Assembly: GCF_032854445.1 (NCBI RefSeq)
Contig: NC_088303.1
Location: forward strand, 31,847,265 to 31,911,264
Source of the DNA: Liolophura sinensis
Lineage: Eukaryota; Mollusca; Polyplacophora; Chitonida; Chitonidae
Reading direction: 5' to 3'
DNA: 64,000 nt
The notes beneath the pieces are model-generated. The model did not search any database and had not been told where the DNA came from. It was given only the letters and a program-made list of their open reading frames with translations. The position numbers and the translations under genes were made by a program. This document shows, piece after piece, positions 1-37,786 of the stretch (position 1 is the first letter of the stretch; the number at the start of each line of letters is the position of its first letter).

Positions 1-51
1 CACATATATTTAATTCACAGATCTTTTAACTAGGTTGTCTATATCTTGCAG

Positions 52-12100: not shown

Positions 12101-12569
12101 CTTTTATACACGGGTTATACATGTTTAGTCAATACAAAAATAATTCGCTGATCGAGGGTAAAGGCATATTTTGTTATTTTGCAATATTTTTTTCTGTTTT
12201 AAGGTAAACTCACGCAGGGAGCGACTGCACCAAATTCTGTTGGGGCCAGTGGCCAGGACGTTTGAGGCGATCCGGCTCGTCCTGGCGGCCACGTTCCAGA
12301 CGCTGAAGATTCCGGCGTCAGCACTGGCCTGGTCGTCCAGGGTCGACACGCATGGGAACCCGGAGTTTCTGGGAGTCCGGTCCCAGGACATCCGGGTTGA
12401 TGTGCTGCTGGACCCAAGACAAGGCATCAACATCGATGTACAGCGTCTGGGTCCAGCACGCGGCCGTCTTCGGGAGGTGGCTTATTGGTGCTACCAAGTG
12501 ACCTACAGGGGCGTGGTTTGTACCGAGCAGGGTACTAACGTCCTGTATGGTTCACGCTGGGACCCTTAA
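9115..12569 (+). CDS. Secreted protein of unknown function, tandem copy 3 (complete, seven exons)
   Basis: Coding exons: 9115-9203, 10191-10309, 10613-10690, 11012-11071, 11519-11560, 11740-11828 and 12204-12569, with the same phases as copy 2 (280 residues). The few replacements I see against copy 2 are Thr22 to Ser next to the signal peptide and Asn instead of Tyr in the GTNVLYG segment near the C-terminus. Several other changes are silent (for example TTT/TTC in exon 2). This pattern of intact splice sites and mostly silent change suggests both copies are functional. The polyadenylation signal AATAAA is at 13121-13126. Confidence 0.82.
10776..10886 (+). repeat. SINE family A fragment in intron 3 of copy 3
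   Basis: Counterpart of 4330-4440 at the same place in the intron. Confidence 0.58.
11101..11329 (-). repeat. tRNA-derived SINE in intron 4 of copy 3
   Basis: Counterpart of 4655-4883; the B box GGTTCAAATCC (minus strand) is at 11248-11258. Confidence 0.58.
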
Positions 12570-13295
12570 GCCATTGGCCGTTTACTGGGAAGGGTGTCTG
12601 CTTCAACAGGCAAACTTTCGATAGCCACAATCTTCATCAAAATTTCACAGTTTAGAGCACAAAAATTACTTTTCTAAATAATTAACCTCTTCTCGAAAAA
12701 CATTTTTAAGGATTGTACATTTTTCGAGCTAGTAATTTATTTTCACAGTCCATACCCTTCCCATTAACCAGCCGCTGACCATACCAGCTTGTCACCATGC
12801 TAAATTTCTTCTGCAAAAAACAAATCAATACTATTACTAAACTTTGCACCTTTCTATTCGTTTCGATACAGATAAAAAGCTGGCACTGGGATATTGCGGC
12901 TTTAAGACGAACTTGTATGGTTGGTTTTTCGAATAACGCCGTGTGCACTGTAGAACATTTTTCCGACATAGGAAACCCTTTCGGGTTGATAACGAGCCGG
13001 ATTCGTGTACAATCGTCACTGGCCCTGGGATGCACAACATTCAGGAGTACTCAGCATCTGACCACACAGATATATATACACTATACCTAAGGTTTCGTTG
13101 TACTTTCTTTATCCTTTACAAATAAACTCGTTATGTTGCTGTCAAGAAATGACTGTCTGTGGTAATTTTTCTTTCTGCCAGCTGTATATATAGATAAACA
13201 GATTGATTTGTTGGTTCATTGATTGGCGATATTCAGCTCAGAACAAAATCCCAGTTTGTTGGGTAGAGATGTATTTATATTACATTTACATTTAC

Positions 13296-13408
13296 GGAGG
13301 GAGAGGAAGCCAAGTATGAGCTGGACTTGAATTCACAGCGACCGCATTGGTAGGAGCTTCTTGGTCATTGCGCCGTCCTTGTTTGCTACACCACTCGGCC
13401 ACGGAGGC
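13296..13408 (-). repeat. SINE family A head fragment
   Basis: Third copy of the fragment at 1608-1720. Confidence 0.6.
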
Positions 13409-13747
13409 TACCAATCTGATTTATGGGTAAAGGGAATCGAAAGCCGCATTTGAATCACCGTGCATGTGTATACACTCTTGTAAACACTCTTCCATCTGTT
13501 TCTATCTGCTGTGTTCATACTTAATAAAAATGTTTTCACTGAACTCTACATTTAGATATGTTGATTGAATATTTGGTTGATCGATTGGCGATATTCAGCT
13601 CGGAACCAGATTACAGTTTGGGGATAGAGATGTATTTACATTCAGTGAATTTTAGTATGGAAAAATTATTCGAGATTTTTTTGTATATTTTACGTATTTG
13701 ATTATGTTTCATGCTGTATTGAAGAATTTTTCACTTATCTGATTTCC

Positions 13748-13959
13748 TTATTTATTTCATTGGTGTTTTACGCCATACTGAGAATATTTCTCTTATACGA
13801 CTGCAGCCAGCATTTTGATAGAAGGAAAGCGGGCAGAGCCAAGGGGAACCCACAACCATCCGCACGTTGCTGTCACACCTATCCACTTACGGCCGGAGAT
13901 CAAGCCAGCATGAGTTGAACTTGAATTCACAGTGACCGCATTGGAGAGATGCTCCCGAG
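13748..13959 (-). repeat. SINE family A body and tail
   Basis: Third copy of the repeat at 2062. It extends into GTCATTGCGCC, the part of the family A head that is lost in spacer 2. Confidence 0.65.
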
Positions 13960-14285
13960 TCATTGCGCCCTGCTGGGTACATATACTGTTTCTTCTTCTG
14001 GCAAGCAGCCAAAGTACTGCTAGCACTGAAATATCGTGCCGAAAACACCAGCCGTGACACCACACACAATCATATTACACTGACACCGGGCCAACCAATC
14101 AATTTTCTTGCTTTAACCTCTCAGTGCTGTGCGACAAGCGAGGCGGCACTGAGTACCAGTTTGAAAGTCTTTGTTATGACCCTACCCGTGTATGATCCAG
14201 GGGTCTTTGAATTTCCAGACTAACCCTGTAAGCATTTAGCCACCGAAGCGGCCTCACTCATTAATTTGGTCAGGGCCTTAACCGC
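13960..14285 (-). repeat. SINE family B-like with a different tRNA-like head
   Basis: It carries the central motif ATTACACTGACACCGGGCCA, close to ATTATACTGATACAGGTCAA in the family B copy at 52733-53102. The right end is different and reads on the minus strand as GGCCGCTTCGGTGGCTAAATG. Two SINE types thus share a central domain but not a head. Confidence 0.5.
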
Positions 14286-14985
14286 CAGAGCCATATATGA
14301 ATATGTTATGTCATTTCCAGCAATTCCGTGAGAACTGCGGATATTGACTCATATCGGATAGAGTCTAGGAAACAAAAACACCTGACAGACATAGCAGGTC
14401 CTACTGACCATCGTGTGGACAAGCGCTTACAGCTATATAGAACCCAGTCTCTAACATGAGTTTAGGTGAAGATAATATTTACGTGAACACCTATTCATTT
14501 GAAGTATTTGTGTCATTTTAATGAGAAACACTCAGGGAAAGTAGGGCCTATGCACTTCATGGATTTTGATGCATACATTCATGTATTATTAAAAAAAATA
14601 TGTTAAAACTATGTGCTTTTTCAGATGTACAATAATGTGAATTTTAGTTCTAATCAGGAAGATGTACATATTTCCATGCAGTGTATAAAACTGGTTATCA
14701 GGTTGTCATGGTGAGCAAGGGATGTGAAATGATGCTTGATGTGACACGGGGTTACCCAAGCATCTATGCATGAACAAAGAATTAAAATCGTATATGCAAA
14801 GCACTTGTAATTGTGTCCTAAAATACGTGTCTATATAGTATAAAACGGGAGAATAACAATTTGGTTACCAAGGTAACTCCGGAAATGGACAAGTGTAACG
14901 CACGGACACATCGTCACATCTGCATATATCAAATTCAAGATGGCAGCACTTCTGACGTCAGCAATGGAAAACTCGTAAAACTCTT

Positions 14986-15166
14986 TCCAGCCTGTCAATC
15001 ACGGAAGTCTGTAAACATTATCCCTATCTAAATTTTAATCATGTTCACGACGTCCAACATCATCTACGATGTCCACAGCGGCGCATTAGCCTTTCTGACA
15101 ACAATGCGACAAGCACATACACGGACGTAGGCCTACTTTTGTGCAGTTATATGACGTCATGGGAAG
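14986..15166 (+). pseudogene. Truncated promoter copy of the secreted-protein gene
   Basis: The stretch TCAATCACGGAAGTCTGTAA onwards matches the upstream blocks of copies 2 and 3 through the first CRE (15152-15159, TGACGTCA). The match breaks after GGGAA at about 15166. No first exon follows. More substitutions are seen than between copies 2 and 3, so this unit is older or unselected. Confidence 0.65.
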
Positions 15167-15628: not shown

Positions 15629-15632
15629 AGGT
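15629..15632. repeat. Left copy of the 4-bp target-site duplication (AGGT)
   Basis: AGGT directly abuts the first base of the element. The same four bases follow the last base of the element at 32614-32617. Confidence 0.6.
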
Positions 15633-16085
15633 GGCCTCGGACCCCCATTAATTTTCCATAAGCGACAATGTTAACGTCTAGCGCTGTAGCTCAGTCCCAA
15701 ACATTCCGTGGCCATTAAGCTTTGGTGCATACCTGGCCCAGCCTGTGAGAAAGAAGCCATAAAAATCTTGACATAGGTTGACCGTCAAAATCTGGACCTT
15801 TCCATGCCGGCAGCTGGGAGGCGTGCCTAGCAACGCCAAGGGGACGTCACTCGCAGCCTCATCACTACCTCACACCTTGTGTCCTCTCGCCCAGAATTTC
15901 AAACTTTCATCAATAAAGCTCATACCTCCTCAAAGTTTAGACAGTTTCCAGCATTTTAATACCAAGCATGCACCTGTGCACCAAAAATTGACGCCTGGGA
16001 GCAAAAAAAGACTTTATACCCTAAAATTCACAGAACTACAATCGTCCCTACCGAAAAACAGAAGTTGTAATGGGGGTCTGTGTCC
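15633..16085 (+). repeat. 453-bp terminal direct repeat 1, itself bounded by the inverted repeats
   Basis: It begins with the left TIR and ends with the right TIR (TAATGGGGGTCTGTGTCC at 16068-16085), so each repeat looks like a small MITE. No convincing coding frame is present. The frame of about 113 codons that runs out of it is not obviously a gene. It contains TGTAGCTCAGTC, which resembles a tRNA A box, but no B box follows. Confidence 0.8.
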
Positions 16086-16959
16086 TATCACACCAGCCAC
16101 CTTTTTTCAAAATCAATAATTTTTGCACCACACAATTCCTGACACTTTTGAACCTCACAGGCAAAATTAGGGCTTGATACATGCAGAAACTTTGGAGTTG
16201 AATGAATTCAAGTTGGGGTACCCCCATCTTGAACATGTGTCTTTTTTCCAGGGTGAAAAAACTCTGAGGGGTAAACTTTGAAGCCTTGCAGTGCATATAC
16301 CGTTCGAGATATCTCCATCAGGTCAACTGTTTTGGAAAGACAAGATGTTTATCTGCAAGAAAAGTTAAAAAAATCACATTGACAGAGCACTTTAGACTTT
16401 TCAAAAGCAACCATTTAGAGAAATATACATTTTTAAGAAGACTTTTCTACTCAGAGCAGCTTTAAATATCAAAGTTACAAGCCAAAAGTGTCAAAGCATA
16501 CATCAAAATATAGGTAATTTATCTGACAATTAAATGTCAAAATATAAGACATTTACTTCAGCAACTATGTGAAAAAAATTGACTGACAGTGTGGTAGGGG
16601 GTATCAAAGCGGATTGTCACGATTTCGGAACAATCACTTGTGACCAAAATCAAAGCAAGAATAATGCCTCAAGGTGATGAAGATCTACTCACAGGCACTT
16701 TTTTAGTGGACAGGACTTAAGAAAAGACTAGTATCCCAGTTCCCCACTGAATAACATGATGAAACCCTTTAAAAGACCACCCAGCCAGGCACCCCCCCCC
16801 CCTGCCCTCCTCCCCCATGACTGCTGATTGGCTGACCAGCTCACCATGCAAAAACCTCCCTGCACCATTGCTGTTGTCTCACAGCAGGTTATTACTCTGC
16901 ACAGTAACATCAAAGGGTGTCACATTGGCATCTACAATATATAAACAGAGAGGAAAAAT

Positions 16960-19014
16960 ATGAATTTAACATTTCCAATCAGGCAGCCACCAAGTACACC
17001 TATATTGGTCAGTCTGACAGTTAACAAGGCAAACAATCTACCCCAAAACACCATGAAGGGAGACAGAAAGAGGAAACAGTCTAGATTTCAAGCTGGAAAG
17101 GCCCAGAATGGCTCAAATAACCTGTCAGCAGTTACAGACATGCTGAATCCTGTGCCTGGGTGTTCCTTGATGGACACAGATTTCCAGCCCAATCAGGAGG
17201 CTGTAAGAACACACCAGCCTGACACAAAGAGAATACAGCGGCCAAGACGGTGCAAGGTAGATTCCACGGCTGGATCAGACAGAGATACACATGAGCGGGA
17301 ATGGGCTGCTGAAGGAATGCGACTCATAGATATACAGAAAATGGTGTGTATATGGAACAAAGTTATGCTTGAGCACAGTGAGACCAAGGACCACTGTCCA
17401 CTGCCCAGGTTAGAGATAGCTGCAGAGAAAAAGTGGGGTTTAGCCTGGGCGTTCAGTTTTAAGTGCTGTGACTGTGACTATGTATCTGGCTTCCACAAAT
17501 TCTACAAAGAGGTAGAATGCAACAGACCTGGCCAAAAAGCTGCGGCGGTGAACCGAGCTCTTCAAGTAGGCCTCCAGGACACACCAATGGGGAACACCCG
17601 AGCCAGACTCCTATTTGCAGCGATGGACGTGCCGCCTGCCACTCGTAGGAACATGCATCGCACTGCAAACCATGTCGCATCTGCAATCGCAAAGCTGAAC
17701 AGAGAGGATATGGCAAATAAGGTGGAAGAGGTAAAGGCATACAAAAGGCAAAGAGGAGAGGATGACAGCACAATAGATCTGGCCACAGACACTCGCTACA
17801 ACAGCATTACCATAACCAGTCCCAAGAAACCGGGCCAGAATGCTTCACAAGCAATTTCCCTGGCTGTGGAGACATCAACAGACAACCAATACATTGTCTC
17901 CGCAGCACTGAAGAATAAATTGTGTTGGACTGGGTCCTGGCTAAGAGGAAAAGGCTTCCAAGTAAAGTGCCCTGGAGGACACGAGGAGTGCACAGCGAAC
18001 ACAAACCCACATGCCCCCTGGTCCGAGTATAATATGGGGAACGAGATTGGCGAGGGATTGGCGAGGCAAGGTGTTTTTGCCAAACATGTAACCACAGACG
18101 GCGACTCCAGGTCAGCCAAGGGAGTGGAGGACGGCATCCGACTGGTCGAGCCACTGTGGGAGGTCGAACGGTTAGCAGACCCCACGCACCTTGGTAGATC
18201 CCAGTTCAAGAAATGTAACCAGGCTAAGTTCAGCGATGCCATGTTCGAAGGACAGGGCCGAACGAGGGAAGCCAGGAAGAAAGCACAGAAGGTGTTGAGT
18301 CAGGATGTTAAGGCCAGGTGTAGCTTGATATTTTCTCAACTTATGTCTGAGCACATTGGTGACATGAGGAAAATAAAAACTTGCCTACCCAGGGTTGTGG
18401 ATGCAACGGTCAGGTGTTACGGTGGGGACTGTTCCAAATGCCGCAGGAACAGTGTGGTTTGCTCCGGAGGGGAAACCAGCAGCTGGTGGGAGAGGTCCCT
18501 GTTTTTATCCACCAGTAAACTCTGCCCTTTTAACATGGATGACAACGACACGAAACTATTGACCGAAGTACTGCACATGAGGTTGAGCGAGACAGCCGTC
18601 ACCAGTCTCCGGATGAACACCAGCACTCAAAAGTGCGAAGCTGTCAACAGATCACTCAGCGTCTCCTTGCCCAAGAATGTAAACTACAGCAGAAATATGG
18701 AGGGAAGGGCGGCGTCCACAATCCACAGACTTAACAATGGCCAGGACAAGTCCACGGCTGCCAAACTCCAAGCTGTCGGCGCCAGTATTTCACCTAGGAG
18801 CGAGAGAACAGTACAACAGATTGAAAGGGTGAACCAGTACCACAAGGTTTATAAGAAGCGACAGACAGTTAAGGGGAGATCACTCCGCAATGCAGCCAGA
18901 AAACTTCGAGTGCACATTGAGTACAGGCTTTCAAATCCAGAAGAAAAAACTGACTATGCCAAGGGACAGCTGGACAACACCCAAACAGATCACACATACA
19001 CTAGATATTTGTAA
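16960..19014 (+). CDS. Mutator-like DDE transposase, unit 1
   Basis: A single uninterrupted frame of 684 codons. The N-terminus is basic (GDRKRKQSRF, a likely nuclear signal). Residues 169-172 are CCDC in FKCCDCDYVSGF. Acidic residues fit a DDE catalytic site: D273 or D277 in DLATDTRYNS, D380 or D382 in VTTDGDSRSAKG, and E560 in QKCEAVNRSLS. Putative metal-binding residues lie between them, including CPGGHEEC (337-344) and C486-x4-C491-x2-C494-x6-C501. The arrangement resembles the Mutator-like transposase domain seen in many invertebrate proteins. A TATATAAA at 16938-16945 lies only 15 bp before this ATG. Met32 at 17053, in context ACCATGA, may therefore be the real start. AATTAAA follows the stop. 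Expected role: cutting and joining the element ends. Confidence 0.78.
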   Translation: MNLTFPIRQPPSTPILVSLTVNKANNLPQNTMKGDRKRKQSRFQAGKAQNGSNNLSAVTDMLNPVPGCSLMDTDFQPNQEAVRTHQPDTKRIQRPRRCKVDSTAGSDRDTHEREWAAEGMRLIDIQKMVCIWNKVMLEHSETKDHCPLPRLEIAAEKKWGLAWAFSFKCCDCDYVSGFHKFYKEVECNRPGQKAAAVNRALQVGLQDTPMGNTRARLLFAAMDVPPATRRNMHRTANHVASAIAKLNREDMANKVEEVKAYKRQRGEDDSTIDLATDTRYNSITITSPKKPGQNASQAISLAVETSTDNQYIVSAALKNKLCWTGSWLRGKGFQVKCPGGHEECTANTNPHAPWSEYNMGNEIGEGLARQGVFAKHVTTDGDSRSAKGVEDGIRLVEPLWEVERLADPTHLGRSQFKKCNQAKFSDAMFEGQGRTREARKKAQKVLSQDVKARCSLIFSQLMSEHIGDMRKIKTCLPRVVDATVRCYGGDCSKCRRNSVVCSGGETSSWWERSLFLSTSKLCPFNMDDNDTKLLTEVLHMRLSETAVTSLRMNTSTQKCEAVNRSLSVSLPKNVNYSRNMEGRAASTIHRLNNGQDKSTAAKLQAVGASISPRSERTVQQIERVNQYHKVYKKRQTVKGRSLRNAARKLRVHIEYRLSNPEEKTDYAKGQLDNTQTDHTYTRYL

Positions 19015-19112
19015 CCGCCAATTTTGTATATAATTTGTCACTGCTGTTGTTGCTTATGAAAGAAATTAAAAAATGATAACAGAAATTGAGCAAAATCTAA
19101 AACAATCTGTTA

Positions 19113-19118
19113 TTTATT
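19113..19118 (-). other. Polyadenylation signal of the endonuclease gene
   Basis: AATAAA on the minus strand, 5 bp past the endonuclease stop. It lies in the 108-bp gap between the two convergent genes, and identical sites are in the other units. Confidence 0.5.
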
Positions 19119-19122
19119 ATTT

Positions 19123-19506
19123 TTAATGAGGGGAAACCAACCTGCTCAGTCTTAAATGCAACATGCACCTTGCATACTGCCCATGGCCGAGACAGCAGTG
19201 CTGCCTGTTATTGTTAACACAATGTGGTTCCAAGCTTATGTGGTCCACATTTACACAGCGTGTGTTGTGGCACACGTGTGAACAATCAAGCTTGGGATCT
19301 AAATGTGACAGCCCCTGTCTGGCCATATAAACAAGTCTACTGATGTGTTTCTTCTTCCATCGATGTGTGACGGGGTCTTTGTAGGAGGCAAGACCATATC
19401 GACCATCCCTCGTCAATGGTCCAGTCCACACTCGACAGGCTCCGTTTTCACTATAAACACTGAAACTTTCAATTTTTGCAGCAATTTCTGCTCTGAACGT
19501 CTCCAT
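19123..19506 (-). CDS. His-Cys-box (His-Me finger) endonuclease, unit 1
   Basis: 127 codons from ATG at 19506; the frame extends two codons upstream, but only from TTG. The C-terminal half reads CSHVCHNTRCVNVDHISLEP, then N-x2-R-x2-C and GHGQYARCMLH. This Cys/His spacing is that of the zinc-binding loop of His-Cys-box homing endonucleases such as I-PpoI. SHVCHNTRC would contain the catalytic His region, with the Asn in the following helix (CVNNNRQHC). The N-terminal half has ENGACRVWTGP and YGLASY, typical of the beta strands before the His. The small size fits a single-domain nuclease. It faces the transposase gene tail to tail. A role in DNA nicking for transposition or amplification is inferred. 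Confidence 0.75.
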   Translation of the reverse strand: METFRAEIAAKIESFSVYSENGACRVWTGPLTRDGRYGLASYKDPVTHRWKKKHISRLVYMARQGLSHLDPKLDCSHVCHNTRCVNVDHISLEPHCVNNNRQHCCLGHGQYARCMLHLRLSRLVSPH

Positions 19507-19764
19507 TTTCAAGCGTAGGAATACTAGAACGTTGCATGTTGTTCATTTCAGGATGCCTATACACATGCTACCCTACGCTGAACAGCATTTTACCGATTTT
19601 TCATCAAAATGGATATTTTCAAAATGTAAATAGCCCCAAGAAGCTATGAAACGGCCCAATCAATGCAAAACACATCACAGACATACCCACCAAAAATTAT
19701 CAGGCTGCTGCGAAATCTAAGCGCATAGTGACATTTTTCACATTTTGGTGACTTCGTCAGTACA

Positions 19765-20217
19765 GGCCTCGGACCCCCATTAATTTTCCATAAGCGACAA
19801 TGTTAACGTCTAGCGCTGTAGCTCAGTCCCAAACATTCCGTGGCCATTAAGCTTTGGTGCATACCTGGCCCAGCCTGTGAGAAAGAAGCCATAAAAATCT
19901 TGACATAGGTTGACCGTCAAAATCTGGACCTTTCCATGCCGGCAGCTGGGAGGCGTGCCTAGCAACGCCAAGGGGACGTCACTCGCAGCCTCATCACTAC
20001 CTCACACCTTGTGTCCTCTCGCCCAGAATTTCAAACTTTCATCAATAAAGCTCATACCTCCTCAAAGTTTAGACAGTTTCCAGCATTTTAATACCAAGCA
20101 TGCACCTGTGCACCAAAAATTGACGCCTGGGAGCAAAAAAAGACTTTATACCCTAAAATTCACAGAACTACAATCGTCCCTACCGAAAAACAGAAGTTGT
20201 AATGGGGGTCTGTGTCC
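19765..20217 (+). repeat. 453-bp direct repeat 2
   Basis: Identical to repeat 1 as far as I can see. No AGGT flanks it, so it is not an independent insertion. Confidence 0.8.
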
Positions 20218-21091
20218 TATCACACCAGCCACCTTTTTTCAAAATCAATAATTTTTGCACCACACAATTCCTGACACTTTTGAACCTCACAGGCAAAATT
20301 AGGGCTTGATACATGCAGAAACTTTGGAGTTGAATGAATTCAAGTTGGGGTACCCCCATCTTGAACATGTGTCTTTTTTCCAGGGTGAAAAAACTCTGAG
20401 GGGTAAACTTTGAAGCCTTGCAGTGCATATACCGTTCGAGATATCTCCATCAGGTCAACTGTTTTGGAAAGACAAGATGTTTATCTGCAAGAAAAGTTAA
20501 AAAAATCACATTGACAGAGCACTTTAGACTTTTCAAAAGCAACCATTTAGAGAAATATACATTTTTAAGAAGACTTTTCTACTCAGAGCAGCTTTAAATA
20601 TCAAAGTTACAAGCCAAAAGTGTCAAAGCATACATCAAAATATAGGTAATTTATCTGACAATTAAATGTCAAAATATAAGACATTTACTTCAGCAACTAT
20701 GTGAAAAAAATTGACTGACAGTGTGGTAGGGGGTATCAAAGCGGATTGTCACGATTTCGGAACAATCACTTGTGACCAAAATCAAAGCAAGAATAATGCC
20801 TCAAGGTGATGAAGATCTACTCACAGGCACTTTTTTAGTGGACAGGACTTAAGAAAAGACTAGTATCCCAGTTCCCCACTGAATAACATGATGAAACCCT
20901 TTAAAAGACCACCCAGCCAGGCACCCCCCCCCCCTGCCCTCCTCCCCCATGACTGCTGATTGGCTGACCAGCTCACCATGCAAAAACCTCCCTGCACCAT
21001 TGCTGTTGTCTCACAGCAGGTTATTACTCTGCACAGTAACATCAAAGGGTGTCACATTGGCATCTACAATATATAAACAGAGAGGAAAAAT

Positions 21092-23146
21092 ATGAATTTA
21101 ACATTTCCAATCAGGCAGCCACCAAGTACACCTATATTGGTCAGTCTGACAGTTAACAAGGCAAACAATCTACCCCAAAACACCATGAAGGGAGACAGAA
21201 AGAGGAAACAGTCTAGATTTCAAGCTGGAAAGGCCCAGAATGGCTCAAATAACCTGTCAGCAGTTACAGACATGCTGAATCCTGTGCCTGGGTGTTCCTT
21301 GATGGACACAGATTTCCAGCCCAATCAGGAGGCTGTAAGAACACACCAGCCTGACACAAAGAGAATACAGCGGCCAAGACGGTGCAAGGTAGATTCCACG
21401 GCTGGATCAGACAGAGATACACATGAGCGGGAATGGGCTGCTGAAGGAATGCGACTCATAGATATACAGAAAATGGTGTGTATATGGAACAAAGTTATGC
21501 TTGAGCACAGTGAGACCAAGGACCACTGTCCACTGCCCAGGTTAGAGATAGCTGCAGAGAAAAAGTGGGGTTTAGCCTGGGCGTTCAGTTTTAAGTGCTG
21601 TGACTGTGACTATGTATCTGGCTTCCACAAATTCTACAAAGAGGTAGAATGCAACAGACCTGGCCAAAAAGCTGCGGCGGTGAACCGAGCTCTTCAAGTA
21701 GGCCTCCAGGACACACCAATGGGGAACACCCGAGCCAGACTCCTATTTGCAGCGATGGACGTGCCGCCTGCCACTCGTAGGAACATGCATCGCACTGCAA
21801 ACCATGTCGCATCTGCAATCGCAAAGCTGAACAGAGAGGATATGGCAAATAAGGTGGAAGAGGTAAAGGCATACAAAAGGCAAAGAGGAGAGGATGACAG
21901 CACAATAGATCTGGCCACAGACACTCGCTACAACAGCATTACCATAACCAGTCCCAAGAAACCGGGCCAGAATGCTTCACAAGCAATTTCCCTGGCTGTG
22001 GAGACATCAACAGACAACCAATACATTGTCTCCGCAGCACTGAAGAATAAATTGTGTTGGACTGGGTCCTGGCTAAGAGGAAAAGGCTTCCAAGTAAAGT
22101 GCCCTGGAGGACACGAGGAGTGCACAGCGAACACAAACCCACATGCCCCCTGGTCCGAGTATAATATGGGGAACGAGATTGGCGAGGGATTGGCGAGGCA
22201 AGGTGTTTTTGCCAAACATGTAACCACAGACGGCGACTCCAGGTCAGCCAAGGGAGTGGAGGACGGCATCCGACTGGTCGAGCCACTGTGGGAGGTCGAA
22301 CGGTTAGCAGACCCCACGCACCTTGGTAGATCCCAGTTCAAGAAATGTAACCAGGCTAAGTTCAGCGATGCCATGTTCGAAGGACAGGGCCGAACGAGGG
22401 AAGCCAGGAAGAAAGCACAGAAGGTGTTGAGTCAGGATGTTAAGGCCAGGTGTAGCTTGATATTTTCTCAACTTATGTCTGAGCACATTGGTGACATGAG
22501 GAAAATAAAAACTTGCCTACCCAGGGTTGTGGATGCAACGGTCAGGTGTTACGGTGGGGACTGTTCCAAATGCCGCAGGAACAGTGTGGTTTGCTCCGGA
22601 GGGGAAACCAGCAGCTGGTGGGAGAGGTCCCTGTTTTTATCCACCAGTAAACTCTGCCCTTTTAACATGGATGACAACGACACGAAACTATTGACCGAAG
22701 TACTGCACATGAGGTTGAGCGAGACAGCCGTCACCAGTCTCCGGATGAACACCAGCACTCAAAAGTGCGAAGCTGTCAACAGATCACTCAGCGTCTCCTT
22801 GCCCAAGAATGTAAACTACAGCAGAAATATGGAGGGAAGGGCGGCGTCCACAATCCACAGACTTAACAATGGCCAGGACAAGTCCACGGCTGCCAAACTC
22901 CAAGCTGTCGGCGCCAGTATTTCACCTAGGAGCGAGAGAACAGTACAACAGATTGAAAGGGTGAACCAGTACCACAAGGTTTATAAGAAGCGACAGACAG
23001 TTAAGGGGAGATCACTCCGCAATGCAGCCAGAAAACTTCGAGTGCACATTGAGTACAGGCTTTCAAATCCAGAAGAAAAAACTGACTATGCCAAGGGACA
23101 GCTGGACAACACCCAAACAGATCACACATACACTAGATATTTGTAA
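21092..23146 (+). CDS. Mutator-like DDE transposase, unit 2
   Basis: 684 codons with translation identical to unit 1, exactly 4,132 bp downstream. The 10-11 C homopolymer and the TATA-like motif upstream are kept as well. The putative catalytic residues are present, so it looks intact. Confidence 0.78.
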   Translation: MNLTFPIRQPPSTPILVSLTVNKANNLPQNTMKGDRKRKQSRFQAGKAQNGSNNLSAVTDMLNPVPGCSLMDTDFQPNQEAVRTHQPDTKRIQRPRRCKVDSTAGSDRDTHEREWAAEGMRLIDIQKMVCIWNKVMLEHSETKDHCPLPRLEIAAEKKWGLAWAFSFKCCDCDYVSGFHKFYKEVECNRPGQKAAAVNRALQVGLQDTPMGNTRARLLFAAMDVPPATRRNMHRTANHVASAIAKLNREDMANKVEEVKAYKRQRGEDDSTIDLATDTRYNSITITSPKKPGQNASQAISLAVETSTDNQYIVSAALKNKLCWTGSWLRGKGFQVKCPGGHEECTANTNPHAPWSEYNMGNEIGEGLARQGVFAKHVTTDGDSRSAKGVEDGIRLVEPLWEVERLADPTHLGRSQFKKCNQAKFSDAMFEGQGRTREARKKAQKVLSQDVKARCSLIFSQLMSEHIGDMRKIKTCLPRVVDATVRCYGGDCSKCRRNSVVCSGGETSSWWERSLFLSTSKLCPFNMDDNDTKLLTEVLHMRLSETAVTSLRMNTSTQKCEAVNRSLSVSLPKNVNYSRNMEGRAASTIHRLNNGQDKSTAAKLQAVGASISPRSERTVQQIERVNQYHKVYKKRQTVKGRSLRNAARKLRVHIEYRLSNPEEKTDYAKGQLDNTQTDHTYTRYL

Positions 23147-23254
23147 CCGCCAATTTTGTATATAATTTGTCACTGCTGTTGTTGCTTATGAAAGAAATTA
23201 AAAAATGATAACAGAAATTGAGCAAAATCTAAAACAATCTGTTATTTATTATTT

Positions 23255-23638
23255 TTAATGAGGGGAAACCAACCTGCTCAGTCTTAAATGCAACATGCAC
23301 CTTGCATACTGCCCATGGCCGAGACAGCAGTGCTGCCTGTTATTGTTAACACAATGTGGTTCCAAGCTTATGTGGTCCACATTTACACAGCGTGTGTTGT
23401 GGCACACGTGTGAACAATCAAGCTTGGGATCTAAATGTGACAGCCCCTGTCTGGCCATATAAACAAGTCTACTGATGTGTTTCTTCTTCCATCGATGTGT
23501 GACGGGGTCTTTGTAGGAGGCAAGACCATATCGACCATCCCTCGTCAATGGTCCAGTCCACACTCGACAGGCTCCGTTTTCACTATAAACACTGAAACTT
23601 TCAATTTTTGCAGCAATTTCTGCTCTGAACGTCTCCAT
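23255..23638 (-). CDS. His-Cys-box endonuclease, unit 2
   Basis: Identical translation to unit 1; ATG at 23638, stop at 23255-23257, convergent with the unit 2 transposase. Confidence 0.75.
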   Translation of the reverse strand: METFRAEIAAKIESFSVYSENGACRVWTGPLTRDGRYGLASYKDPVTHRWKKKHISRLVYMARQGLSHLDPKLDCSHVCHNTRCVNVDHISLEPHCVNNNRQHCCLGHGQYARCMLHLRLSRLVSPH

Positions 23639-23896
23639 TTTCAAGCGTAGGAATACTAGAACGTTGCATGTTGTTCATTTCAGGATGCCTATACACATGC
23701 TACCCTACGCTGAACAGCATTTTACCGATTTTTCATCAAAATGGATATTTTCAAAATGTAAATAGCCCCAAGAAGCTATGAAACGGCCCAATCAATGCAA
23801 AACACATCACAGACATACCCACCAAAAATTATCAGGCTGCTGCGAAATCTAAGCGCATAGTGACATTTTTCACATTTTGGTGACTTCGTCAGTACA

Positions 23897-24349
23897 GGCC
23901 TCGGACCCCCATTAATTTTCCATAAGCGACAATGTTAACGTCTAGCGCTGTAGCTCAGTCCCAAACATTCCGTGGCCATTAAGCTTTGGTGCATACCTGG
24001 CCCAGCCTGTGAGAAAGAAGCCATAAAAATCTTGACATAGGTTGACCGTCAAAATCTGGACCTTTCCATGCCGGCAGCTGGGAGGCGTGCCTAGCAACGC
24101 CAAGGGGACGTCACTCGCAGCCTCATCACTACCTCACACCTTGTGTCCTCTCGCCCAGAATTTCAAACTTTCATCAATAAAGCTCATACCTCCTCAAAGT
24201 TTAGACAGTTTCCAGCATTTTAATACCAAGCATGCACCTGTGCACCAAAAATTGACGCCTGGGAGCAAAAAAAGACTTTATACCCTAAAATTCACAGAAC
24301 TACAATCGTCCCTACCGAAAAACAGAAGTTGTAATGGGGGTCTGTGTCC
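23897..24349 (+). repeat. 453-bp direct repeat 3
   Basis: Same sequence and same position relative to the genes as repeats 1 and 2. Confidence 0.8.
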
Positions 24350-25223
24350 TATCACACCAGCCACCTTTTTTCAAAATCAATAATTTTTGCACCACACAAT
24401 TCCTGACACTTTTGAACCTCACAGGCAAAATTAGGGCTTGATACATGCAGAAACTTTGGAGTTGAATGAATTCAAGTTGGGGTACCCCCATCTTGAACAT
24501 GTGTCTTTTTTCCAGGGTGAAAAAACTCTGAGGGGTAAACTTTGAAGCCTTGCAGTGCATATACCGTTCGAGATATCTCCATCAGGTCAACTGTTTTGGA
24601 AAGACAAGATGTTTATCTGCAAGAAAAGTTAAAAAAATCACATTGACAGAGCACTTTAGACTTTTCAAAAGCAACCATTTAGAGAAATATACATTTTTAA
24701 GAAGACTTTTCTACTCAGAGCAGCTTTAAATATCAAAGTTACAAGCCAAAAGTGTCAAAGCATACATCAAAATATAGGTAATTTATCTGACAATTAAATG
24801 TCAAAATATAAGACATTTACTTCAGCAACTATGTGAAAAAAATTGACTGACAGTGTGGTAGGGGGTATCAAAGCGGATTGTCACGATTTCGGAACAATCA
24901 CTTGTGACCAAAATCAAAGCAAGAATAATGCCTCAAGGTGATGAAGATCTACTCACAGGCACTTTTTTAGTGGACAGGACTTAAGAAAAGACTAGTATCC
25001 CAGTTCCCCACTGAATAACATGATGAAACCCTTTAAAAGACCACCCAGCCAGGCACCCCCCCCCCCTGCCCTCCTCCCCCATGACTGCTGATTGGCTGAC
25101 CAGCTCACCATGCAAAAACCTCCCTGCACCATTGCTGTTGTCTCACAGCAGGTTATTACTCTGCACAGTAACATCAAAGGGTGTCACATTGGCATCTACA
25201 ATATATAAACAGAGAGGAAAAAT

Positions 25224-27278
25224 ATGAATTTAACATTTCCAATCAGGCAGCCACCAAGTACACCTATATTGGTCAGTCTGACAGTTAACAAGGCAAACAA
25301 TCTACCCCAAAACACCATGAAGGGAGACAGAAAGAGGAAACAGTCTAGATTTCAAGCTGGAAAGGCCCAGAATGGCTCAAATAACCTGTCAGCAGTTACA
25401 GACATGCTGAATCCTGTGCCTGGGTGTTCCTTGATGGACACAGATTTCCAGCCCAATCAGGAGGCTGTAAGAACACACCAGCCTGACACAAAGAGAATAC
25501 AGCGGCCAAGACGGTGCAAGGTAGATTCCACGGCTGGATCAGACAGAGATACACATGAGCGGGAATGGGCTGCTGAAGGAATGCGACTCATAGATATACA
25601 GAAAATGGTGTGTATATGGAACAAAGTTATGCTTGAGCACAGTGAGACCAAGGACCACTGTCCACTGCCCAGGTTAGAGATAGCTGCAGAGAAAAAGTGG
25701 GGTTTAGCCTGGGCGTTCAGTTTTAAGTGCTGTGACTGTGACTATGTATCTGGCTTCCACAAATTCTACAAAGAGGTAGAATGCAACAGACCTGGCCAAA
25801 AAGCTGCGGCGGTGAACCGAGCTCTTCAAGTAGGCCTCCAGGACACACCAATGGGGAACACCCGAGCCAGACTCCTATTTGCAGCGATGGACGTGCCGCC
25901 TGCCACTCGTAGGAACATGCATCGCACTGCAAACCATGTCGCATCTGCAATCGCAAAGCTGAACAGAGAGGATATGGCAAATAAGGTGGAAGAGGTAAAG
26001 GCATACAAAAGGCAAAGAGGAGAGGATGACAGCACAATAGATCTGGCCACAGACACTCGCTACAACAGCATTACCATAACCAGTCCCAAGAAACCGGGCC
26101 AGAATGCTTCACAAGCAATTTCCCTGGCTGTGGAGACATCAACAGACAACCAATACATTGTCTCCGCAGCACTGAAGAATAAATTGTGTTGGACTGGGTC
26201 CTGGCTAAGAGGAAAAGGCTTCCAAGTAAAGTGCCCTGGAGGACACGAGGAGTGCACAGCGAACACAAACCCACATGCCCCCTGGTCCGAGTATAATATG
26301 GGGAACGAGATTGGCGAGGGATTGGCGAGGCAAGGTGTTTTTGCCAAACATGTAACCACAGACGGCGACTCCAGGTCAGCCAAGGGAGTGGAGGACGGCA
26401 TCCGACTGGTCGAGCCACTGTGGGAGGTCGAACGGTTAGCAGACCCCACGCACCTTGGTAGATCCCAGTTCAAGAAATGTAACCAGGCTAAGTTCAGCGA
26501 TGCCATGTTCGAAGGACAGGGCCGAACGAGGGAAGCCAGGAAGAAAGCACAGAAGGTGTTGAGTCAGGATGTTAAGGCCAGGTGTAGCTTGATATTTTCT
26601 CAACTTATGTCTGAGCACATTGGTGACATGAGGAAAATAAAAACTTGCCTACCCAGGGTTGTGGATGCAACGGTCAGGTGTTACGGTGGGGACTGTTCCA
26701 AATGCCGCAGGAACAGTGTGGTTTGCTCCGGAGGGGAAACCAGCAGCTGGTGGGAGAGGTCCCTGTTTTTATCCACCAGTAAACTCTGCCCTTTTAACAT
26801 GGATGACAACGACACGAAACTATTGACCGAAGTACTGCACATGAGGTTGAGCGAGACAGCCGTCACCAGTCTCCGGATGAACACCAGCACTCAAAAGTGC
26901 GAAGCTGTCAACAGATCACTCAGCGTCTCCTTGCCCAAGAATGTAAACTACAGCAGAAATATGGAGGGAAGGGCGGCGTCCACAATCCACAGACTTAACA
27001 ATGGCCAGGACAAGTCCACGGCTGCCAAACTCCAAGCTGTCGGCGCCAGTATTTCACCTAGGAGCGAGAGAACAGTACAACAGATTGAAAGGGTGAACCA
27101 GTACCACAAGGTTTATAAGAAGCGACAGACAGTTAAGGGGAGATCACTCCGCAATGCAGCCAGAAAACTTCGAGTGCACATTGAGTACAGGCTTTCAAAT
27201 CCAGAAGAAAAAACTGACTATGCCAAGGGACAGCTGGACAACACCCAAACAGATCACACATACACTAGATATTTGTAA
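25224..27278 (+). CDS. Mutator-like DDE transposase, unit 3
   Basis: 684 codons, identical to units 1 and 2, with no interruption. Confidence 0.78.
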   Translation: MNLTFPIRQPPSTPILVSLTVNKANNLPQNTMKGDRKRKQSRFQAGKAQNGSNNLSAVTDMLNPVPGCSLMDTDFQPNQEAVRTHQPDTKRIQRPRRCKVDSTAGSDRDTHEREWAAEGMRLIDIQKMVCIWNKVMLEHSETKDHCPLPRLEIAAEKKWGLAWAFSFKCCDCDYVSGFHKFYKEVECNRPGQKAAAVNRALQVGLQDTPMGNTRARLLFAAMDVPPATRRNMHRTANHVASAIAKLNREDMANKVEEVKAYKRQRGEDDSTIDLATDTRYNSITITSPKKPGQNASQAISLAVETSTDNQYIVSAALKNKLCWTGSWLRGKGFQVKCPGGHEECTANTNPHAPWSEYNMGNEIGEGLARQGVFAKHVTTDGDSRSAKGVEDGIRLVEPLWEVERLADPTHLGRSQFKKCNQAKFSDAMFEGQGRTREARKKAQKVLSQDVKARCSLIFSQLMSEHIGDMRKIKTCLPRVVDATVRCYGGDCSKCRRNSVVCSGGETSSWWERSLFLSTSKLCPFNMDDNDTKLLTEVLHMRLSETAVTSLRMNTSTQKCEAVNRSLSVSLPKNVNYSRNMEGRAASTIHRLNNGQDKSTAAKLQAVGASISPRSERTVQQIERVNQYHKVYKKRQTVKGRSLRNAARKLRVHIEYRLSNPEEKTDYAKGQLDNTQTDHTYTRYL

Positions 27279-27386
27279 CCGCCAATTTTGTATATAATTT
27301 GTCACTGCTGTTGTTGCTTATGAAAGAAATTAAAAAATGATAACAGAAATTGAGCAAAATCTAAAACAATCTGTTATTTATTATTT

Positions 27387-27770
27387 TTAATGAGGGGAAA
27401 CCAACCTGCTCAGTCTTAAATGCAACATGCACCTTGCATACTGCCCATGGCCGAGACAGCAGTGCTGCCTGTTATTGTTAACACAATGTGGTTCCAAGCT
27501 TATGTGGTCCACATTTACACAGCGTGTGTTGTGGCACACGTGTGAACAATCAAGCTTGGGATCTAAATGTGACAGCCCCTGTCTGGCCATATAAACAAGT
27601 CTACTGATGTGTTTCTTCTTCCATCGATGTGTGACGGGGTCTTTGTAGGAGGCAAGACCATATCGACCATCCCTCGTCAATGGTCCAGTCCACACTCGAC
27701 AGGCTCCGTTTTCACTATAAACACTGAAACTTTCAATTTTTGCAGCAATTTCTGCTCTGAACGTCTCCAT
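27387..27770 (-). CDS. His-Cys-box endonuclease, unit 3
   Basis: Identical translation to the other units; ATG at 27770. Confidence 0.75.
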   Translation of the reverse strand: METFRAEIAAKIESFSVYSENGACRVWTGPLTRDGRYGLASYKDPVTHRWKKKHISRLVYMARQGLSHLDPKLDCSHVCHNTRCVNVDHISLEPHCVNNNRQHCCLGHGQYARCMLHLRLSRLVSPH

Positions 27771-28028
27771 TTTCAAGCGTAGGAATACTAGAACGTTGCA
27801 TGTTGTTCATTTCAGGATGCCTATACACATGCTACCCTACGCTGAACAGCATTTTACCGATTTTTCATCAAAATGGATATTTTCAAAATGTAAATAGCCC
27901 CAAGAAGCTATGAAACGGCCCAATCAATGCAAAACACATCACAGACATACCCACCAAAAATTATCAGGCTGCTGCGAAATCTAAGCGCATAGTGACATTT
28001 TTCACATTTTGGTGACTTCGTCAGTACA

Positions 28029-28481
28029 GGCCTCGGACCCCCATTAATTTTCCATAAGCGACAATGTTAACGTCTAGCGCTGTAGCTCAGTCCCAAACAT
28101 TCCGTGGCCATTAAGCTTTGGTGCATACCTGGCCCAGCCTGTGAGAAAGAAGCCATAAAAATCTTGACATAGGTTGACCGTCAAAATCTGGACCTTTCCA
28201 TGCCGGCAGCTGGGAGGCGTGCCTAGCAACGCCAAGGGGACGTCACTCGCAGCCTCATCACTACCTCACACCTTGTGTCCTCTCGCCCAGAATTTCAAAC
28301 TTTCATCAATAAAGCTCATACCTCCTCAAAGTTTAGACAGTTTCCAGCATTTTAATACCAAGCATGCACCTGTGCACCAAAAATTGACGCCTGGGAGCAA
28401 AAAAAGACTTTATACCCTAAAATTCACAGAACTACAATCGTCCCTACCGAAAAACAGAAGTTGTAATGGGGGTCTGTGTCC
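28029..28481 (+). repeat. 453-bp direct repeat 4
   Basis: Same as repeats 1-3. Confidence 0.8.
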
Positions 28482-29355
28482 TATCACACCAGCCACCTTT
28501 TTTCAAAATCAATAATTTTTGCACCACACAATTCCTGACACTTTTGAACCTCACAGGCAAAATTAGGGCTTGATACATGCAGAAACTTTGGAGTTGAATG
28601 AATTCAAGTTGGGGTACCCCCATCTTGAACATGTGTCTTTTTTCCAGGGTGAAAAAACTCTGAGGGGTAAACTTTGAAGCCTTGCAGTGCATATACCGTT
28701 CGAGATATCTCCATCAGGTCAACTGTTTTGGAAAGACAAGATGTTTATCTGCAAGAAAAGTTAAAAAAATCACATTGACAGAGCACTTTAGACTTTTCAA
28801 AAGCAACCATTTAGAGAAATATACATTTTTAAGAAGACTTTTCTACTCAGAGCAGCTTTAAATATCAAAGTTACAAGCCAAAAGTGTCAAAGCATACATC
28901 AAAATATAGGTAATTTATCTGACAATTAAATGTCAAAATATAAGACATTTACTTCAGCAACTATGTGAAAAAAATTGACTGACAGTGTGGTAGGGGGTAT
29001 CAAAGCGGATTGTCACGATTTCGGAACAATCACTTGTGACCAAAATCAAAGCAAGAATAATGCCTCAAGGTGATGAAGATCTACTCACAGGCACTTTTTT
29101 AGTGGACAGGACTTAAGAAAAGACTAGTATCCCAGTTCCCCACTGAATAACATGATGAAACCCTTTAAAAGACCACCCAGCCAGGCACCCCCCCCCCCTG
29201 CCCTCCTCCCCCATGACTGCTGATTGGCTGACCAGCTCACCATGCAAAAACCTCCCTGCACCATTGCTGTTGTCTCACAGCAGGTTATTACTCTGCACAG
29301 TAACATCAAAGGGTGTCACATTGGCATCTACAATATATAAACAGAGAGGAAAAAT

Positions 29356-31410
29356 ATGAATTTAACATTTCCAATCAGGCAGCCACCAAGTACACCTATA
29401 TTGGTCAGTCTGACAGTTAACAAGGCAAACAATCTACCCCAAAACACCATGAAGGGAGACAGAAAGAGGAAACAGTCTAGATTTCAAGCTGGAAAGGCCC
29501 AGAATGGCTCAAATAACCTGTCAGCAGTTACAGACATGCTGAATCCTGTGCCTGGGTGTTCCTTGATGGACACAGATTTCCAGCCCAATCAGGAGGCTGT
29601 AAGAACACACCAGCCTGACACAAAGAGAATACAGCGGCCAAGACGGTGCAAGGTAGATTCCACGGCTGGATCAGACAGAGATACACATGAGCGGGAATGG
29701 GCTGCTGAAGGAATGCGACTCATAGATATACAGAAAATGGTGTGTATATGGAACAAAGTTATGCTTGAGCACAGTGAGACCAAGGACCACTGTCCACTGC
29801 CCAGGTTAGAGATAGCTGCAGAGAAAAAGTGGGGTTTAGCCTGGGCGTTCAGTTTTAAGTGCTGTGACTGTGACTATGTATCTGGCTTCCACAAATTCTA
29901 CAAAGAGGTAGAATGCAACAGACCTGGCCAAAAAGCTGCGGCGGTGAACCGAGCTCTTCAAGTAGGCCTCCAGGACACACCAATGGGGAACACCCGAGCC
30001 AGACTCCTATTTGCAGCGATGGACGTGCCGCCTGCCACTCGTAGGAACATGCATCGCACTGCAAACCATGTCGCATCTGCAATCGCAAAGCTGAACAGAG
30101 AGGATATGGCAAATAAGGTGGAAGAGGTAAAGGCATACAAAAGGCAAAGAGGAGAGGATGACAGCACAATAGATCTGGCCACAGACACTCGCTACAACAG
30201 CATTACCATAACCAGTCCCAAGAAACCGGGCCAGAATGCTTCACAAGCAATTTCCCTGGCTGTGGAGACATCAACAGACAACCAATACATTGTCTCCGCA
30301 GCACTGAAGAATAAATTGTGTTGGACTGGGTCCTGGCTAAGAGGAAAAGGCTTCCAAGTAAAGTGCCCTGGAGGACACGAGGAGTGCACAGCGAACACAA
30401 ACCCACATGCCCCCTGGTCCGAGTATAATATGGGGAACGAGATTGGCGAGGGATTGGCGAGGCAAGGTGTTTTTGCCAAACATGTAACCACAGACGGCGA
30501 CTCCAGGTCAGCCAAGGGAGTGGAGGACGGCATCCGACTGGTCGAGCCACTGTGGGAGGTCGAACGGTTAGCAGACCCCACGCACCTTGGTAGATCCCAG
30601 TTCAAGAAATGTAACCAGGCTAAGTTCAGCGATGCCATGTTCGAAGGACAGGGCCGAACGAGGGAAGCCAGGAAGAAAGCACAGAAGGTGTTGAGTCAGG
30701 ATGTTAAGGCCAGGTGTAGCTTGATATTTTCTCAACTTATGTCTGAGCACATTGGTGACATGAGGAAAATAAAAACTTGCCTACCCAGGGTTGTGGATGC
30801 AACGGTCAGGTGTTACGGTGGGGACTGTTCCAAATGCCGCAGGAACAGTGTGGTTTGCTCCGGAGGGGAAACCAGCAGCTGGTGGGAGAGGTCCCTGTTT
30901 TTATCCACCAGTAAACTCTGCCCTTTTAACATGGATGACAACGACACGAAACTATTGACCGAAGTACTGCACATGAGGTTGAGCGAGACAGCCGTCACCA
31001 GTCTCCGGATGAACACCAGCACTCAAAAGTGCGAAGCTGTCAACAGATCACTCAGCGTCTCCTTGCCCAAGAATGTAAACTACAGCAGAAATATGGAGGG
31101 AAGGGCGGCGTCCACAATCCACAGACTTAACAATGGCCAGGACAAGTCCACGGCTGCCAAACTCCAAGCTGTCGGCGCCAGTATTTCACCTAGGAGCGAG
31201 AGAACAGTACAACAGATTGAAAGGGTGAACCAGTACCACAAGGTTTATAAGAAGCGACAGACAGTTAAGGGGAGATCACTCCGCAATGCAGCCAGAAAAC
31301 TTCGAGTGCACATTGAGTACAGGCTTTCAAATCCAGAAGAAAAAACTGACTATGCCAAGGGACAGCTGGACAACACCCAAACAGATCACACATACACTAG
31401 ATATTTGTAA
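29356..31410 (+). CDS. Mutator-like DDE transposase, unit 4
   Basis: 684 codons, identical to the other three units. It is the copy nearest the right end of the array. Confidence 0.78.
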   Translation: MNLTFPIRQPPSTPILVSLTVNKANNLPQNTMKGDRKRKQSRFQAGKAQNGSNNLSAVTDMLNPVPGCSLMDTDFQPNQEAVRTHQPDTKRIQRPRRCKVDSTAGSDRDTHEREWAAEGMRLIDIQKMVCIWNKVMLEHSETKDHCPLPRLEIAAEKKWGLAWAFSFKCCDCDYVSGFHKFYKEVECNRPGQKAAAVNRALQVGLQDTPMGNTRARLLFAAMDVPPATRRNMHRTANHVASAIAKLNREDMANKVEEVKAYKRQRGEDDSTIDLATDTRYNSITITSPKKPGQNASQAISLAVETSTDNQYIVSAALKNKLCWTGSWLRGKGFQVKCPGGHEECTANTNPHAPWSEYNMGNEIGEGLARQGVFAKHVTTDGDSRSAKGVEDGIRLVEPLWEVERLADPTHLGRSQFKKCNQAKFSDAMFEGQGRTREARKKAQKVLSQDVKARCSLIFSQLMSEHIGDMRKIKTCLPRVVDATVRCYGGDCSKCRRNSVVCSGGETSSWWERSLFLSTSKLCPFNMDDNDTKLLTEVLHMRLSETAVTSLRMNTSTQKCEAVNRSLSVSLPKNVNYSRNMEGRAASTIHRLNNGQDKSTAAKLQAVGASISPRSERTVQQIERVNQYHKVYKKRQTVKGRSLRNAARKLRVHIEYRLSNPEEKTDYAKGQLDNTQTDHTYTRYL

Positions 31411-31518
31411 CCGCCAATTTTGTATATAATTTGTCACTGCTGTTGTTGCTTATGAAAGAAATTAAAAAATGATAACAGAAATTGAGCAAAATCTAAAACA
31501 ATCTGTTATTTATTATTT

Positions 31519-31902
31519 TTAATGAGGGGAAACCAACCTGCTCAGTCTTAAATGCAACATGCACCTTGCATACTGCCCATGGCCGAGACAGCAGTGCTGC
31601 CTGTTATTGTTAACACAATGTGGTTCCAAGCTTATGTGGTCCACATTTACACAGCGTGTGTTGTGGCACACGTGTGAACAATCAAGCTTGGGATCTAAAT
31701 GTGACAGCCCCTGTCTGGCCATATAAACAAGTCTACTGATGTGTTTCTTCTTCCATCGATGTGTGACGGGGTCTTTGTAGGAGGCAAGACCATATCGACC
31801 ATCCCTCGTCAATGGTCCAGTCCACACTCGACAGGCTCCGTTTTCACTATAAACACTGAAACTTTCAATTTTTGCAGCAATTTCTGCTCTGAACGTCTCC
31901 AT
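31519..31902 (-). CDS. His-Cys-box endonuclease, unit 4
   Basis: Identical translation to the other units; ATG at 31902. Confidence 0.75.
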   Translation of the reverse strand: METFRAEIAAKIESFSVYSENGACRVWTGPLTRDGRYGLASYKDPVTHRWKKKHISRLVYMARQGLSHLDPKLDCSHVCHNTRCVNVDHISLEPHCVNNNRQHCCLGHGQYARCMLHLRLSRLVSPH

Positions 31903-32160
31903 TTTCAAGCGTAGGAATACTAGAACGTTGCATGTTGTTCATTTCAGGATGCCTATACACATGCTACCCTACGCTGAACAGCATTTTACCGATTTTTCAT
32001 CAAAATGGATATTTTCAAAATGTAAATAGCCCCAAGAAGCTATGAAACGGCCCAATCAATGCAAAACACATCACAGACATACCCACCAAAAATTATCAGG
32101 CTGCTGCGAAATCTAAGCGCATAGTGACATTTTTCACATTTTGGTGACTTCGTCAGTACA

Positions 32161-32613
32161 GGCCTCGGACCCCCATTAATTTTCCATAAGCGACAATGTT
32201 AACGTCTAGCGCTGTAGCTCAGTCCCAAACATTCCGTGGCCATTAAGCTTTGGTGCATACCTGGCCCAGCCTGTGAGAAAGAAGCCATAAAAATCTTGAC
32301 ATAGGTTGACCGTCAAAATCTGGACCTTTCCATGCCGGCAGCTGGGAGGCGTGCCTAGCAACGCCAAGGGGACGTCACTCGCAGCCTCATCACTACCTCA
32401 CACCTTGTGTCCTCTCGCCCAGAATTTCAAACTTTCATCAATAAAGCTCATACCTCCTCAAAGTTTAGACAGTTTCCAGCATTTTAATACCAAGCATGCA
32501 CCTGTGCACCAAAAATTGACGCCTGGGAGCAAAAAAAGACTTTATACCCTAAAATTCACAGAACTACAATCGTCCCTACCGAAAAACGGAAGTTGTAATG
32601 GGGGTCTGTGTCC
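32161..32613 (+). repeat. 453-bp terminal direct repeat 5 (right end of the array)
   Basis: Matches repeats 1-4 except A to G at 32588, just inside the right inverted repeat. It ends exactly where the target duplication AGGT starts. Confidence 0.8.
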
Positions 32614-32617
32614 AGGT
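32614..32617. repeat. Right copy of the 4-bp target-site duplication (AGGT)
   Basis: Pairs with 15629-15632. Removing one copy and the element leaves GCTCAAGGTCACAG followed by GTATGT. Confidence 0.6.
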
Positions 32618-37443: not shown

Positions 37444-37761
37444 GCCAATGGCCGTTTACTAGGAAGGGTGTATGTAACAAGCAAACTTTCGATTGTCACA
37501 ATCTTCAGCAAAATTTCGCAATTAAACGCACCAGAACTGGCTTTTGTAAATAAGTAAAACGTTGTCGAAAAACGTTTTTATAGATTGTACATTTTTAGCG
37601 GGATTAATTTATTTTCACAGTCCATACCCTTCCCATTAATCAGCCGCTGGCTATACCAGTTTGTCCACCATGTTAAATTTCTTTTGCAAAAAATAACTAA
37701 ATAAGTAAATAACCCCAACAGAGAAGGTTATGACAAACTATGCACCTTTTTGTTCGCTTTG

Positions 37762-37786
37762 ATATATATATATATATATATATATA
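37762..37786. repeat. (TA)n microsatellite
   Basis: About twelve TA dinucleotides in the 3' flank of the relic gene, absent from copies 1-3. Confidence 0.85.

Follow-up and report, generated by a model that had tools for sequence, protein, structure and literature searches.

KolobokP is a recently described animal lineage of the Kolobok superfamily of DNA transposons, in which long terminal direct repeats (LTDRs) of ∼450 or ∼660 bp flank an internal region (INT) (Kojima and Bao, 2022; PMC9587614). In their description, each LTDR has inverted ends of its own, up to 18 bp long and with RR..YY termini. The target duplications are 3–5 bp, and the elements encode a DDD/E transposase with C/DxxH and zinc-finger signatures and, downstream on the complementary strand, an I-PpoI-like His-Me finger nuclease. 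Solo LTDRs and (LTDR-INT)n-LTDR multimers with flanking duplications have been described, multimers being common in the lineage. The same paper asks how the composite structure can persist, given that an LTDR is able to leave on its own.

The tandem array considered here occupies positions 15633–32613 of a 64,000-nt stretch of DNA from the chiton Liolophura sinensis (NCBI RefSeq assembly GCF_032854445.1, contig NC_088303.1, positions 31,847,265 to 31,911,264 of the forward strand; hereafter the window, whose positions serve as coordinates). It has the architecture that defines KolobokP (PMC9587614), so the view of a first-pass annotation of this DNA, that no standard DNA transposon superfamily has this layout, has to be abandoned. 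Placed by the published description, the array is almost certainly a KolobokP transposon of the form (LTDR-INT)4-LTDR. It is probably a new family of this known lineage, as set against the published description rather than the published family sequences. Its LTDRs are 453 bp long, as in the ∼450-bp class, their inverted ends are 18 bp with GG..CC termini, the target duplication is 4 bp, the transposase has the DxxH form of the motif, and the nuclease lies downstream on the complementary strand.

Tandem arrays with common terminal repeats, solo repeats, and matched repeat pairs are also known from terminal-repeat retrotransposons in miniature and other long terminal repeat (LTR) retrotransposons; the array element differs from these in its long inverted ends and in that no reverse transcriptase was found. 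Arrays of the repeat-core-repeat-core-repeat form are likewise produced by IS26. Mutator-like elements have target duplications of 8–11 bp, and this candidate was rejected, as the target duplication of the array is 4 bp; the Pfam name "Mutator-like" is only a label. In the bacterial IS26 pseudo-composite transposons cited in PMC9587614, the transposase is located in the repeat, whereas in the array it is located in the core. Other Kolobok groups (KolX, KolobokE, and KolobokH; PMC9587614) are similar in having a DDD/E transposase, DxxH, zinc-finger signatures, and RR..YY termini, but their target is TTAA, while the family of the array has duplications such as AGGT, ACAT, and GTCT, as well as long direct repeats.

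Two things are added here to the published KolobokP text: homogenisation of the LTDR pairs, as neither it nor concerted evolution is named in the main text of PMC9587614, and a subfamily with a split nuclease. The apparent homogenisation of the pairs, a derived base found in four of the five LTDRs of the array, and the apparently continued movement of the split-nuclease subfamily bear on the question of how the composite structure survives. The subfamily also leaves fewer possible roles for the nuclease, and array growth becomes a testable question.

Layout of the array

Five 453-bp direct repeats and four 3,679-bp cores alternate exactly, with the period of 4,132, as the first-pass annotation had it. 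LTDRs 1–4 are identical over 453 bp, the four INT copies are mutually identical, and the sole difference within the array is at 32588, with G in LTDR 5 and A in LTDRs 1–4. The 18-bp inverted ends match at 15 of 18 positions, a level reached by none of 20,000 random pairs of 18-mers drawn from the window flanks. These ends had been ascribed to the outer edges. The match holds, but the restriction does not, since each 453-bp repeat has both inverted ends and the ends thus belong to every LTDR. The flanking 4-bp duplication is present as described (..AAGGT / element / AGGTC..), and the data support both the proposed basic unit, a 4,585-bp DNA transposon with long terminal direct repeats, and its tandem amplification. 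The window contains no N, and the copy number of four units is as assembled. The features, in plain order, are:

15629..15632, target site duplication AGGT, left copy
15633..16085, plus strand, LTDR 1, 453 bp, with its own inverted ends
15633..15650, plus strand, left 18-bp inverted repeat, sharing 15 of 18 positions with its right counterpart
16086..19764, plus strand, INT 1, 3,679 bp
16960..19014, plus strand, transposase open reading frame (ORF) 1, 684 aa, Pfam PF20700
19123..19512, minus strand, His-Me finger (I-PpoI-like) nuclease ORF 1 (TTG start listed; in-frame ATG two codons on)
19765..20217, plus strand, LTDR 2
20218..23896, plus strand, INT 2
21092..23146, plus strand, transposase ORF 2, identical
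23255..23644, minus strand, nuclease ORF 2, identical
23897..24349, plus strand, LTDR 3
24350..28028, plus strand, INT 3
25224..27278, plus strand, transposase ORF 3, identical
27387..27776, minus strand, nuclease ORF 3, identical
28029..28481, plus strand, LTDR 4
28482..32160, plus strand, INT 4
29356..31410, plus strand, transposase ORF 4, identical
31519..31908, minus strand, nuclease ORF 4, identical
32161..32613, plus strand, LTDR 5, one base different (32588)
32588, plus strand, single variant base, G, as in both LTDRs of 29 other elements; A in LTDRs 1–4
32596..32613, plus strand, right 18-bp inverted repeat
32614..32617, target site duplication AGGT, right copy

Genomic copies and concerted evolution of LTDR pairs

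Copies of the element were searched for in the 609-Mb assembly. With the LTDR as the query, the 40 best of 2,068 first-look candidates were scored; all of them matched at 99–100% over the full length, and hence the scored copies are the youngest ones. The first set, from which two sites with runs of N (L010 and L018) were left out, comprised 24 sites: 10 solo LTDRs, the array, and 13 elements with a single core, one of which contains an insert. With the INT start as the query, scoring the 40 best among 282 candidates yielded four starts in the array, 34 single ones, and two flanking a run of N on C12, where the second INT start was not preceded by INT. For the second set, LTDR pieces of 20 elements were fetched, and 16 complete pairs were kept, the four elements with an incomplete LTDR being dropped. 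The tabulation of forms that had been called for gives, over both sets, 10 solo LTDRs, 29 single-core elements, and one array, 40 sites altogether. When these were checked for ends elsewhere in the unit, the LTDR match was found to reach both outer ends in the 40 sites, with a different first base in L034; as the sites were queried by LTDR or INT start and only complete LTDRs were used, copies with ends elsewhere would be under-represented among them.

An exact 4-bp duplication was found at 33 of the 40 sites (20 of 24 in the first set and 13 of 16 in the second). Re-pairing the flanks of the first 24 sites gave 1.65 exact matches on average and 7 at most. While KolobokP is described as having no strong target preference (PMC9587614), the duplications here lean to ANNT, which accounts for 14 of 20 in the first set (background 0.103) and, more weakly, for 4 of 13, counted by eye, in the second. 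Searches for empty sites within the window and the fetched loci yielded none that spanned a junction by the criterion used; one edge match, 76% identical to the flank of L014, was set aside.

The paired LTDRs of one element evolve together. Within the 29 single-core elements, they differ by 0.86 bases on average, 14 pairs having no base difference, whereas LTDRs of different elements differ by 3.35 on average (3.15–3.55). None of 10,000 re-pairings gave a mean as low as that within pairs; the distances leave out gap columns, and the re-pairing test ignores subfamily structure. Firmer evidence than this test is provided by six variants recurring in at least two elements, for of the 47 combinations of element and variant, 46 have the variant in both LTDRs. 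Six further variants, private to one copy, are found in both LTDRs of five of the 29 elements. Under cut-and-paste transposition with each LTDR simply carried along, a new base would be expected in one LTDR only.

Two loci are possible intermediates of the LTDR matching. One is L034: of its two LTDRs, only the right one has the recurring variant 51A, which 12 related elements carry on both sides. The other is the array itself, with the derived base A in LTDRs 1–4 and the ancestral G in LTDR 5 (LTDR position 428). This pattern suggests that the new base arose in one LTDR and was later copied to others, and it is as expected for an unequal exchange between a right and a left LTDR 5' of LTDR position 428.

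Some further observations concern the flanks and the less complete copies. Two sites without an exact duplication (L019 and L025) have right flanks starting with TATC, the same four bases with which INT begins, and at a third one (L052, C9:17.44 Mb) the left flank ends with AGTACA, the last six bases of INT. Such INT-like bases could be donor carry-over from a circle or a neighbouring unit, or a matter of chance. The right-end 19-mer occurs 609 times, and the reversed control 0 times. By eye, among the 100 places listed, we counted 16 same-strand pairs of right ends less than 10 kb apart: five at ∼4.1 kb, seven at 2.90–2.94 kb (on C1 and C2), and four others. The 2.90–2.94 kb pairs probably represent a shorter, non-autonomous form of the element. 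Beside the full element in L016, there is a 239-bp piece (9175–9411) that is 88.7% LTDR-like, perhaps an older relative.

Transposase, nuclease, and the split-nuclease subfamily

A Pfam scan of the seven ORFs of at least 80 residues in one unit agrees with the initial claim that each core encodes a DDE-type transposase and a nuclease, with no reverse transcriptase found; the five remaining ORFs had no Pfam match with E of 0.1 or less. The 684-aa transposase (PF20700, E = 1.1e-76) is open and identical in the four copies. PF20700 was found in all 20 aligned proteins, the array transposase included, and conservation across these sequences points to residues D277, D380/D382, and E560, to a DxxH motif at 407–410, and to putative CCHC and cysteine groups located, respectively, after the first D and before the last E. 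With candidate catalytic residues assigned from this conservation, the protein appears to be a transposase of the DDD/E type with DxxH and zinc-finger signatures. We found 97 relatives, all with PF20700, the named ones coming from Haliotis, Patella, Mytilus, and Mizuhopecten. The two closest are 56 and 58% identical, and no near-identical protein was found among them. The transposase had no match in PDB.

The nuclease ORF, on the opposite strand, is also open and identical in the four copies, and contains the zf-His_Me_endon domain (PF05551, E = 3.8e-08). Its best PDB matches are weak ones to I-PpoI (E = 0.038). Residues S97, H98, C100, C105, H110, E114, N119, R122, and C125 are conserved by position with I-PpoI, and the predicted catalytic His-Cys stretch is collinear with it. 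No relatives of the nuclease were found in a large protein set. Semi-palindromes, considered as candidate nuclease sites, were absent from the LTDR (0 found, 0.83 expected from shuffles).

No relatives were found in viral contigs by single-sequence or alignment searches. In bacterial and archaeal genomes, single-sequence searches yielded none, and alignment searches yielded one contig, JALTPW010000690.1 (3,244 bp, filed under Chromatiales bacterium), which encodes a transposase with 50% identity. Inspection by eye of its frames of at least 70 residues showed no nuclease, and the array LTDR has no match there. This contig is probably animal sequence that ended up in a metagenome bin.

Some published KolobokP families have no evident nuclease (PMC9587614), and here we found a subfamily in which it is split. 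In 12 elements with 51A, 83A, and 267G in both LTDRs (LTDR columns; the count leaves out C11:25.18), the nuclease matches in two pieces meeting near residue 79, the places being matched by eye. The pieces are near-identical across 11 of the 12 elements, and in C9:5.85 Mb the first piece is 62% identical. Two fetched copies (L076 and L077) have an open transposase frame, with all four of the motifs checked, and the nuclease in two pieces. As nine of the 12 elements have exact 4-bp duplications, transposition seems to have continued with the nuclease broken in cis, and, judging from these sequences, the nuclease seems to be dispensable in cis for transposition. Since uninterrupted copies exist, it may be supplied in trans. 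Nor does pair matching seem to have stopped, as two elements of the subfamily (C9_5.85 and C2_7.33) carry private bases in both LTDRs.

A possible mechanism for array growth and pair matching

A mechanism that may underlie these patterns is as follows. The transposase would bind the inverted ends of the LTDRs and move anything between a left and a right end, be it one LTDR or LTDR-INT-LTDR. The array would descend from a single insertion, its LTDR-INT units having been duplicated by unequal exchange between the direct LTDRs or by break repair between them, events that the nuclease may have provoked. Such a role of the nuclease in exchange has been proposed (PMC9587614), but, to judge from the split-nuclease subfamily, exchange may not strictly require it in cis. 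Exchange between LTDRs would yield both arrays and solo LTDRs, and any unit that left an array from between two adjacent LTDRs would take a matched pair with it. Thus, array growth or single-LTDR exchange would keep the two LTDRs of a pair similar, the effect that reverse transcription has on LTRs. We propose tentatively that LTDR pairs are kept matched without reverse transcription, via tandem arrays or other single-LTDR exchange, that the array is a step of the life cycle rather than debris, and that the homing-type nuclease is unneeded in cis for either transposition or matching.

Several observations weigh against this account or the identification on which it builds. INT-INT junctions, reported for some KolobokP families (PMC9587614), had no exact matches genome-wide. 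There is only one array among the 40 best of 282 INT starts. At seven of the 40 sites, no exact 4-bp duplication is seen; L034 is counted here, although loss of its first base would make ATAA a fitting duplication. Twenty-nine differences are confined to one LTDR, as would be expected from later mutation. The zinc ligands C132, H134, and C138 of I-PpoI have no positional match in the ungapped alignment; the region of the last zinc ligands of the nuclease is described as extremely variable (PMC9587614). Finally, gene conversion and circle integration would pass the pair test just as array growth does.

Matched pairs would also result if each element were founded from a single LTDR, with an LTDR-INT circle entering a solo LTDR or by template-switching synthesis, and with no array phase. 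This is possible, if doubtful: it fits the match of LTDRs within elements and the presence of recurring variants in both (46 of 47), but it predicts identical pairs at insertion, whereas the left LTDR of L034 lacks the 51A of the right one and LTDRs of two types occur together in the window array; both cases could be later mutations or exchanges. The array may also have moved in as a concatemer, or as a circle that was replicated and inserted, and not grown in place. The array as a whole is flanked by one pair of 4-bp duplications, and IS26-like translocatable units have been proposed for KolobokP (PMC9587614). However, growth in place predicts the single pair equally well, and the 40 scored INT starts, 36 of which lie outside this array, revealed no further one, so we regard this origin as unlikely.

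Less probable still is an assembly artefact, in which a single LTDR-INT-LTDR was expanded by an assembler looping over identical repeats. The units are indeed identical but for one base, and two other loci with the element have runs of N; yet the window has none, multimers are common in the lineage (PMC9587614), and the base of LTDR 5 differs from that of LTDRs 1–4, which implies at least two LTDR types at the locus, although it does not fix the copy number. We give hardly any credence to an endogenous retrovirus or LTR retrotransposon, although either would suit the direct terminal repeats, the solo repeats, and the 4-bp target duplication. The two main ORFs encode a DDD/E-type transposase and a His-Me nuclease, the other five match no Pfam family, and the termini read GG..CC instead of TG..CA and have inverted repeats of 18 bp.

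The window contains other repeats besides the array. Upstream of it, there is a large direct repeat, whose copies at 2272–7507 and 8718–13944 share 98.8% identity over 5.2 kb. Three copies of a 2.27-kb part are present (1–2274, 5243–7507, and 11689–13958), with a 1.4-kb relative at 36743–38157. Four ORFs tried from 1–15000 had no Pfam match above the curated cut-off. Blocks of tandem repeats, seen as self-matches at short offsets, are located at 39313–40789, 45031–46332, and 50785–51110.

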